From positions 1 through 43,775 of the IMG/VR virus record IMGVR_UViG_3300009091_000006: a stretch of 43,775 nt of DNA. One strand, 5' to 3'. The position numbers and the translations under genes are program-made. Of this stretch, positions 1,350 through 2,749 are shown one piece after another (position 1 is the stretch's first letter; each line of letters begins with the position of its first letter). The stretch is from a virus. Below the pieces are notes generated by a model. The model did no database searches. It was not told the origin of the DNA and was given only the letters and a program-made list of their open reading frames with translations.

Positions 1350-1662
1350 GGTAAGTTGCCTCCCTTAGTTGTTGTTCAAGACAGAATAGAATCATACAGG
1401 CTGCATGAGCTAGGTGATTGAGGTTAGATTCTGGGTCTAATGTCTCTCCTTCGTTATTAGAAAGGAGGTGGCGCATCGCTGCGGAAAGGAGTCTATCTTG
1501 GGTTATCCCATTCCTCCAGTTATGAGCTGAGTATTTCTCTTTGCCAAAATCTAAGACTCTTGCTATCTCAAAGAGAGGCTTAGTTGGGATTAGAGAGATA
1601 GAGGGCTTATCTTGTTTGTTGGAATCGAACTTGATTCCTCCTATTTTAGCTGGCTTCTTCAT
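1303..1662 (-). CDS. dATP/dGTP diphosphohydrolase-like protein (DUF5664, MazG-type fold)
   Basis: A 119-aa all-alpha NTP pyrophosphohydrolase-like protein. Residues 31-50 carry the family signature FEIARVLDFGKEKYSAHNWR. It is followed by a helix with R64-H65 and by LDPES (75-79) and HLAHAACMILF (83-93), matching the DUF5664/dATP-dGTP diphosphohydrolase group. Proteins of this fold split dNTPs to dNMP and pyrophosphate with metal bound by Glu/Asp/His, so a role in adjusting dNTP pools during replication is likely. The length fits a single domain. It overlaps the upstream membrane-protein gene by 4 bases (ATGA type). Two further proteins of this broad class occur in the genome, near 37.8 kb and 40.2 kb. 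Confidence 0.8.
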   Translation of the reverse strand: MKKPAKIGGIKFDSNKQDKPSISLIPTKPLFEIARVLDFGKEKYSAHNWRNGITQDRLLSAAMRHLLSNNEGETLDPESNLNHLAHAACMILFCLEQQLREATYHEFDNRFKARENCVD

Positions 1663-1943
1663 TTCTTATTCTCCTCTTGTTTAGTCTTAATTGAACTCTG
1701 TAAGTTTAGTTCTGTTGCTAGTGAATCCATTGCCTCAAAGTGCAGCATTATCTTCTCTGCTTCTGGTGTGGTTTTAACAGGAGTAGTTACTACTATTCCT
1801 CCTACCTCTAGCTGTTGTGTAATAAGAGAGTAACTACCGCAGATAGCTAAAGCTATTATTACTATAAGAGTTAATAGAACTAGAACTTCTCTTACTCTGT
1901 TATGATGCTGGATAAGTTGCTTATTGAGTTCGTGGAGCTTCAT
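1659..1943 (-). CDS. Single-pass membrane protein, 94 aa (possible second exon)
   Basis: The unspliced ORF encodes 94 aa with one clear membrane segment at residues 20-42 (VLVLLTLIVIIALAICG), a polar N-terminus and a Glu/Lys-rich C-terminal tail that could form a helix. Function is unknown. The ribosome site is weak (AAGGA 10 bases upstream). The reading frame stays open upstream of the ATG for eight codons, up to a TAA at 1968-1970, next to the 3' end of the group I intron. It could therefore be exon 2 of a spliced gene whose exon 1 is the 50-aa ORF at 2597-2749. The alternative is an ordinary gene starting at this ATG. Confidence 0.7.
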   Translation of the reverse strand: MKLHELNKQLIQHHNRVREVLVLLTLIVIIALAICGSYSLITQQLEVGGIVVTTPVKTTPEAEKIMLHFEAMDSLATELNLQSSIKTKQEENKK

Positions 1944-1958: not shown

Positions 1959-2599
1959 CTTTCCTTGTTATTGCATTAAGTAATGCTACCACTTCAACTT
2001 TCGCTGCCACTTCCTAACCGCTGTCCTTATTAGGAGTTCTGCGTTGTCTCGGTATGTTCGTGGTCTGGACTATGCTATCGCCATTGCTTCCACCTTCTTG
2101 TCTATTGGTGGCCTTACTATCCCAAGTTCGGGCTTAGCTTCAGCTTTAGGCATTCCGTCTCTAGTCTCTACACCTTCCCCTTAGCTCTACTACTATTAGT
2201 CTTTTTACAGGGCTGTGATGTGACACCTGTAAGGGGCTTGGCTCGGCGTTGGCATTCTCTTAACCAGATTATTGGCTAGTAATTACTAACCAGTCCAGCA
2301 TCTTATCCAATTATAGGACTCTTATTCAGAGTGAGATTAAGCGTTCGCCGAATTTACGGAAATTCAATTACTAAGAACCAAGGCTAATGGCATATTGTAT
2401 AACTACTATGCTTGACTATCTTTAATTAAGCCAACATCTTATCCAAGATCGGTTAAATATCGGATGACTTAATAGTTCTAATCTAGCGGGTTTCCCTTGA
2501 GTTGTTACGCCTTATTATGTGCGAAGTTGCATCGCAGCATTAACCTTATAACAAGACTACCAACTCATTTTTCGCTAGCGACCTTCTATTTCTATTCTA
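1959..2599 (-). ncRNA. Group I self-splicing intron, no internal ORF
   Basis: On the minus strand this gap carries the conserved group I core in the correct order. The P element AACTCAAGGGAAACCC is at 2503-2488, Q (AACGCCGAGCCAAG) at 2250-2237, R (GTGTAGAGACTAGAGACGG) at 2173-2155 and S (GATAGCATAGTCC) at 2079-2067. Pairings visible by eye: P2 TGCGA/TCGCA (2536-2532 with 2524-2520), P3 AGGCGT/ATGCCT (2512-2507 with 2153-2148), P6 CCCCTT/AAGGGG (2236-2231 with 2182-2177), P6a ACAGG/CCTGT (2230-2226 with 2211-2207), P7 GACTA/TAGTC (2166-2162 with 2072-2068), and a hairpin GCATTACTTAATGC (1986-1973). A guide GTCTT at 2557-2553 can form P1 with AAGGT (exon ending at 2581) or GGGAT (exon ending at 2600). 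The exact ends are therefore uncertain: 2580 or 2599 on the 5' side, and a G between about 1951 and 2000 on the 3' side. There is no homing endonuclease reading frame. Confidence 0.88.
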
Positions 2600-2749
2600 A
2601 TCCCTCCATATATATTTCTTTCTAGGTTTTCTTCCCTCCTTCTTAGCTAGTATCTCCTCTAGAATTTGTGCTGTGCTTCTATTCAAGCTTAGGGCATTAA
2701 GTTTACGCTGCTGTTGATGGTTTCTTGCTTGATGCTTTGTGCGTGTCAT
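2597..2749 (-). CDS. Small basic ORF, 50 aa (possible first exon)
   Basis: The ATG overlaps the stop of the upstream nuclease gene as ATGA, so it is very probably translated. Unspliced, it gives 50 aa, Gln/Asn/Arg-rich at the start (TKHQARNHQQQRK) and ending KKEGRKPRKKYIWRD before TAG. No family is recognised. The TAG stop follows directly after GGGAT, one of two possible group I 5' splice sites. Splicing there would remove the stop and, with a 3' site after base 1959, continue in frame into the membrane protein at 1659-1943. If the 5' site is instead at 2581, the ORF ends before the intron and stands alone. Confidence 0.65.
   Translation of the reverse strand: MTRTKHQARNHQQQRKLNALSLNRSTAQILEEILAKKEGRKPRKKYIWRD

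Follow-up and report, generated by a model that had tools for sequence, protein, structure and literature searches.

A predicted group I ribozyme in a spacer of a podovirus replication operon and its relation to introns of phage tRNA genes

The spacer and its surroundings

The window (the whole stretch of viral DNA analysed, 43,775 nt) belongs to a podovirus whose portal protein is closest, among isolates, to those of EBPR podovirus 3 and Polaromonas phage Tiera. Its replication operon encodes an exonuclease, a dATPase/dGTPase-type PHROG protein and a Sak4-type ATPase. The exonuclease gene and a small basic ORF are followed by a gap, beyond which an ORF with its own start is found (Table 1). 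The initial annotation placed a group I intron without an endonuclease in this gap, at 2599-1959, and was right that this part of the phage replication operon is non-coding. Its limits were close to those conserved in relatives, 2586-1972. The element ends GAAGGUCG ... GCA are common to the window and the contigs L013, L014 and L020, and those of L027 are AAAGCCCG ... GCA; in all of them the flanks beyond differ. Judged from its sequence, the stretch 1972-2586 of the minus strand can securely be assigned to the group I ribozymes.

The interior of the element contains no ORF of homing-endonuclease size, in line with the initial annotation, and no match to HNH, GIY-YIG or LAGLIDADG domains was obtained for ten other ORFs of the window. 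No tRNA gene was found in the window or in the contigs with intergenic relatives. A 16-nt direct repeat (94%) is present within the element, at 2295-2310 (P5 region) and 2431-2446 (between P2 and P3). A copy of part of the 3' hairpin sequence in the small ORF (2689-2702) was dismissed as a repeat at chance level.

Table 1. Features of the element and its flanks (window coordinates)
Feature	Position	Strand	Remarks
Whole element	1972..2586	-	615 nt; limits set by conservation among the intergenic clade
Small basic ORF	2597..2749	-	50 aa, complete, upstream of the element; stop 10 nt before it
94-aa ORF	1659..1943	-	own start, downstream of the element
Internal guide sequence GGU	2581..2583	-	3 nt; from alignment with tRNA copies
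P2	2578-2573/2488-2483	-	4/6 pairs compensatory
P2.1	2566-2561/2504-2499	-	
GAAA-capped 2-bp hairpin	2496-2489	-	tetraloop stem compensatory
Extra segment between P2 and P3	2365..2482	-	limits approximate; common only to the window and L013
P3 5' strand UUCCGU	2356..2361	-	Rfam alignment; invariant 11/11
P element	about 2355-2341	-	
P4 5' strand UCGGCG	2346..2351	-	in P element; Rfam and 11-member alignments
Q element	about 2253-2238	-	
P4 3' strand CGCCGA	2243..2248	-	in Q element; Rfam and 11-member alignments
P6 CCCC/GGGG	2236-2233/2180-2177	-	3/4 pairs compensatory
R element	about 2178-2155	-	
P7 5' strand GACUA	2162..2166	-	in R element; guanosine site; 3/5 P7 pairs compensatory
P3 3' strand ACGGAA	2153..2158	-	Rfam alignment; invariant 11/11
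P8 GCC/GGC	2151-2149/2082-2080	-	covaries: GCC/GGC, ACC/GGU, GCC/GGU
S element	about 2076-2062	-	
P7 3' strand UAGUC	2068..2072	-	in S element
P9 CCAC/GUGG	2063-2060/1992-1989	-	encloses a GAAA-capped hairpin
GAAA-capped hairpin inside P9	2006-1995	-	4/4 pairs compensatory
3' hairpin GCAUU-ACUU-AAUGC	1973..1986	-	on omega-G position; stem covaries; candidate cleavage U1979/U1978

Detection and structure of the core

A default Rfam scan of the window returned no match, because the group I model RF00028 scores 30.2 bits there, below its gathering cut-off of 50. With permissive settings, scanning positions 1850-2800 (951 nt) gave this below-threshold match over the full model length, at 2437-2144 on the minus strand (E=1.3e-5; E=1.4e-7 as a single-family genome search). 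The model thus recognizes the group I RNA claimed by the initial annotation, but at a score under its cut-off. The close relative L013 had no RF00028 match at E<=1, so the model is insensitive for these RNAs. Compared with shuffled sequences, folding of the gap is better for the minus strand (z=-2.44) but not for the plus strand (z=+0.3).

The core segments of eleven members were aligned after removal of the variable loops and of the insert of about 118 nt present in the window and L013. In this alignment 98.4% of cells are paired, versus 88.9% in shuffles and 27-42% when slid, and 18 pairs have changes on both sides, P7 among these. Members were retrieved by requiring identity to stretches of the core. 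This inflates the apparent conservation there; covariation cannot be created in this way. The covarying helices are P2, P6, P7, P8, P9 and the GAAA-capped hairpin, while P4 is nearly, and P3 fully, invariant. The P7 of L027, GCACA/UGUGC, is an example of compensatory change. The extra segment between P2 and P3 is missing in L014, L020, L027 and the tRNA copies.

Most of the fold put forward in the initial annotation is borne out by the RF00028 match and the core alignment: the P, Q, R and S elements lie in order on the minus strand, and the P2, P6 and P7 (GACTA/TAGTC) pairings are real and covary in relatives. Its P3, AGGCGT (2512-2507) with ATGCCT (2153-2148), has to be replaced by the invariant pair of Table 1; the GCC of the supposed strand AUGCC belongs to P8, where it pairs with covariation.

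Copies in phage tRNA genes and an intergenic clade

Related RNAs in other viral contigs, found through DNA patterns taken from the core, form two groups: anticodon-loop copies in phage tRNA genes (Leu, Met) and an intergenic clade. Most sit in the tRNA anticodon loop, in tRNA-Leu with the layout GGGACU^intron^UAAAAUCCC (^, splice junction); L016 and L018 carry copies in Met-type tRNA genes. The guide GGU pairs with exon ACU in the tRNA-Leu copies, and GUG with CAU in L018. The core of the window is homologous to this intron family in both sequence and structure. The family reaches into an isolate, Agrobacterium phage Atu_ph07 (L074, 756-1110), in which a tRNA-Leu gene is split by a group I intron unannotated in the record. 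The same intron 3' end lies within the dnaB gene of a crAss-like isolate (L075, Kolpuevirus OQ198718), adjoining a GIY-type endonuclease.

Several contigs have features of their own. L012 combines in one stretch a GOLLD RNA, a permuted tmRNA, many tRNAs and a tRNA-Leu intron placed one base later (CUU^AAAA). The tRNA-Leu intron of L019 has in its P2 loop a tRNA-like sequence (AACAGGG...CCCTGTT arms; minus strand, about 2300-2430) that ARAGORN did not call. Related introns ending GUGGUAGAG, with an opposite-strand ORF just upstream, occur in L030, L032, L040 and L043. The matches in L021-L024 and L052-L071 lacked the core and were discarded as chance pattern matches. Seven contigs with the same exonuclease had no intron at that place, the whole records of nine neighbours found by protein gave no RF00028 match, and neither the window nor L020 gave a nucleotide match in the collection of isolate phages.

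The window, L013, L014, L020 and L027 form a single clade (support 98/96) in a tree from which the columns of the guide and the 3' end were excluded. All five intact members lie between complete genes, with the upstream ORF complete in each, and this branch is likely not an intron inside a gene. A decayed sixth copy (L026, 4547-5000), in which J8/7 and P9 are changed and the 3' hairpin is lacking, occurs in a relative of the window phage. The phages of the window, L013 and L026 make up one podovirus lineage (exonuclease and ATPase identity 58-67%), in which the L013 copy lies between two genes upstream of the exonuclease, that of L026 one gene further on, and that of the window after the exonuclease and the small ORF. 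Three operon positions in one lineage imply movement, either of the element or of its neighbouring genes. The clade phages are divergent overall, with DNA polymerase or primase identity of about 23-29%; the DNA polymerases of L014 and L020 are only 23-24% identical to that of the window. An old immobile intron, one of three options given in the initial annotation, fits badly, since divergent phages carry the clade and related podoviruses hold it at three operon positions.

Splice sites, the 3' hairpin and possible function

In the tRNA copies the partner of the guide ends 6-10 nt before it and is fully paired except for the closing U-G wobble. No 5' guide partner at a constant distance was found in the five members of the intergenic clade; the nearest possible partners stand at 15, 35, 8 or 17, 40 and 46 nt, and several of them involve additional wobble pairs. 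At the fourth base past the P9 3' strand the five intergenic copies all carry C, so that omega-G is not at its usual place; all other listed members (tRNA and gene copies) carry G there except L030 and L032 (UAGAG). The L012 row of this comparison was out of register; its true end is GUGGUACG. As judged from the alignments, the core is kept under covariation and both ordinary splice sites seem to be altered.

The C that replaces omega-G is part of a new 5-bp hairpin of the clade, whose stem is GCGUU/AACGC in L014 and GCAGU/ACUGC in L027. The first three bases of its loop complement the guide in 5/5 members (ACU/GGU in four, GGU/GCC in L027). The hairpin may be likened to a joined anticodon arm with the junction ACU^U, the CU^U position in the loop mirroring the tRNA splice junction (GGGACU^UAAAAUCCC). 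The fixed-register chance of the loop-guide match is 4/64 and 1/64 (1/64 for L027). As a functional pairing the complementarity is suggestive only, because just two cases are independent and the hypothesis came from the data used to assess it. The window hairpin is not unusually stable compared with shuffles (z=-1.1). It was rejected as a terminator, as it has no T run and no terminator was called there.

Based on these observations, the element is probably no ordinary intron: no gene is interrupted, no 5' partner stands at a constant distance, C takes the place of omega-G, and the hairpin is complementary to the guide. Of the initial label, group I ribozyme stands and intron is doubtful, with 0/5 intact clade copies interrupting a gene and C at the omega-G position. 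We tentatively prefer to see in it a group I ribozyme related to the anticodon-loop introns of phage tRNAs, in a branch which no longer interrupts a gene and would cut its own 3' hairpin. That it is, more specifically, a natural group I ribozyme without splicing, with its P1 substrate moved to the 3' hairpin, guanosine-dependent self-cleavage of the operon mRNA and spread from spacer to spacer, is more doubtful. The ribozyme would act within the operon mRNA. The 5' guide would dock on the 3' hairpin, which resembles an anticodon arm (ACU^U), and guanosine bound by the ribozyme would cut after that U, between U1979 and U1978. The ribozyme and upstream genes would thereby be parted from the downstream mRNA, whose start would be the added G. 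Relocation among untranslated spacers, where insertion is harmless, might account for the spread. This guanosine cleavage is our preferred guess, drawn mainly from one covarying relative; the guide-loop pairing has only 3 bp and covaries in that relative. Docking would also need the hairpin to be opened, or the loop to pair like an anticodon; G1986 could act as an unusually placed omega-G; and copies can decay, as L026 shows. The element may have a regulatory or RNA-processing role.

The next reading in probability, although rather unlikely, is ordinary self-splicing out of an untranslated spacer, in which a flexible upstream 5' site would be spliced to a 3' site that follows either G1986 or a G past the hairpin. 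The core appears active, a 3-bp P1 would tolerate many upstream sites, and candidate 5' sites lie near stop codons in the window and L013, e.g. GAUU^AG (2599/2598), which falls within the small ORF's stop codon. The window frame stays open over a GAUU^C junction, and splicing there would lengthen the small protein by ...SLLNA... This was attractive in four members as splicing into a small ORF with a conserved peptide, but was rejected: SLLNA is lost in L027, which keeps the hairpin. Spacer splicing must also contend with the leaders, uneven in length and with several wobbles as opposed to the short, fully paired ones of the tRNA copies, with the C at the omega-G position, and with the candidate site of L013, which is followed by a native-type Shine-Dalgarno-like stretch.

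We regard it as unlikely that the element is a relic, i.e. a decaying ribozyme whose surrounding tRNA gene was lost. The absence of tRNA genes noted above, the decayed L026 copy and the intronless tRNA-Leu(UAA) retained by the related EBPR podovirus 3 are consistent with it. Within the intergenic clade, however, P7 and the 3' hairpin have undergone compensatory changes, the hairpin is a new feature common to the clade, and the occurrence of one clade in such divergent phages indicates that the element persists. A trans-acting RNA which cleaves, or inserts into, a host or phage tRNA is very improbable. Its target would be tRNA, because the guide is still complementary to ACU in the anticodon arms of tRNA-Leu; four of five members keep GGU, and the tRNA copies use the same match, but L027 has changed to GCC and a 3-nt match is weak in trans. 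A chance match, with no group I RNA present, is hardly credible: the score below the Rfam cut-off and the missing match in L013 would agree with it, but homology of the core to introns in split tRNA genes and strong covariation contradict it, and the 11-member alignment refutes it.

Natural group I RNAs not interrupting any gene are, to our knowledge, rare, and searches of an open-access library brought up no article on a phage group I ribozyme lying between genes. A clade that keeps the catalytic core while altering both splice sites would directly exemplify the transition from an intron to a stand-alone ribozyme. Moreover, because this phage family escapes the single Rfam model, ribozymes may lie in gaps left blank by annotation.

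Among known systems, the element resembles the tRNA-Leu(UAA) group I introns in its core, P2-P9 layout, 3-nt guide, 3' end motif and GAAA-capped hairpin, a likeness checked against the phage tRNA copies. The cyanobacterial and plastid tRNA-Leu(UAA) introns are of subgroup IC3; most phage tRNA-Leu copies cut after U33, one nucleotide before the Anabaena site. The phage copies sit in the anticodon loop, whereas the branch of the window has no recognizable exons, C at omega-G and an extra 3' hairpin.

Phage group I introns are found mainly in conserved protein genes (PMC3984707), and more than half of the viral ones are IA2 (PMC11835236). Those of T4 td and nrdB, SPO1 and Twort (mostly IA2) are guanosine-dependent ribozymes in phage DNA, as is predicted for the window element, but they interrupt conserved genes, often with homing endonucleases (PMC3984707, PMC11835236), and the window element does neither. 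The group I-derived lariat-capping ribozyme GIR1 (PMC4167309) is a group I fold that went from splicing to self-processing, as proposed for the window element, although its reaction and context differ. In the engineered permuted intron-exon and in-line circularization constructs (PMC10415121), the substrate lies 3' of an intact ribozyme, as it would in the window; those constructs are artificial and carry a long insert for circularizing, whereas in the window only about 7 nt separate G1986 from the proposed site.
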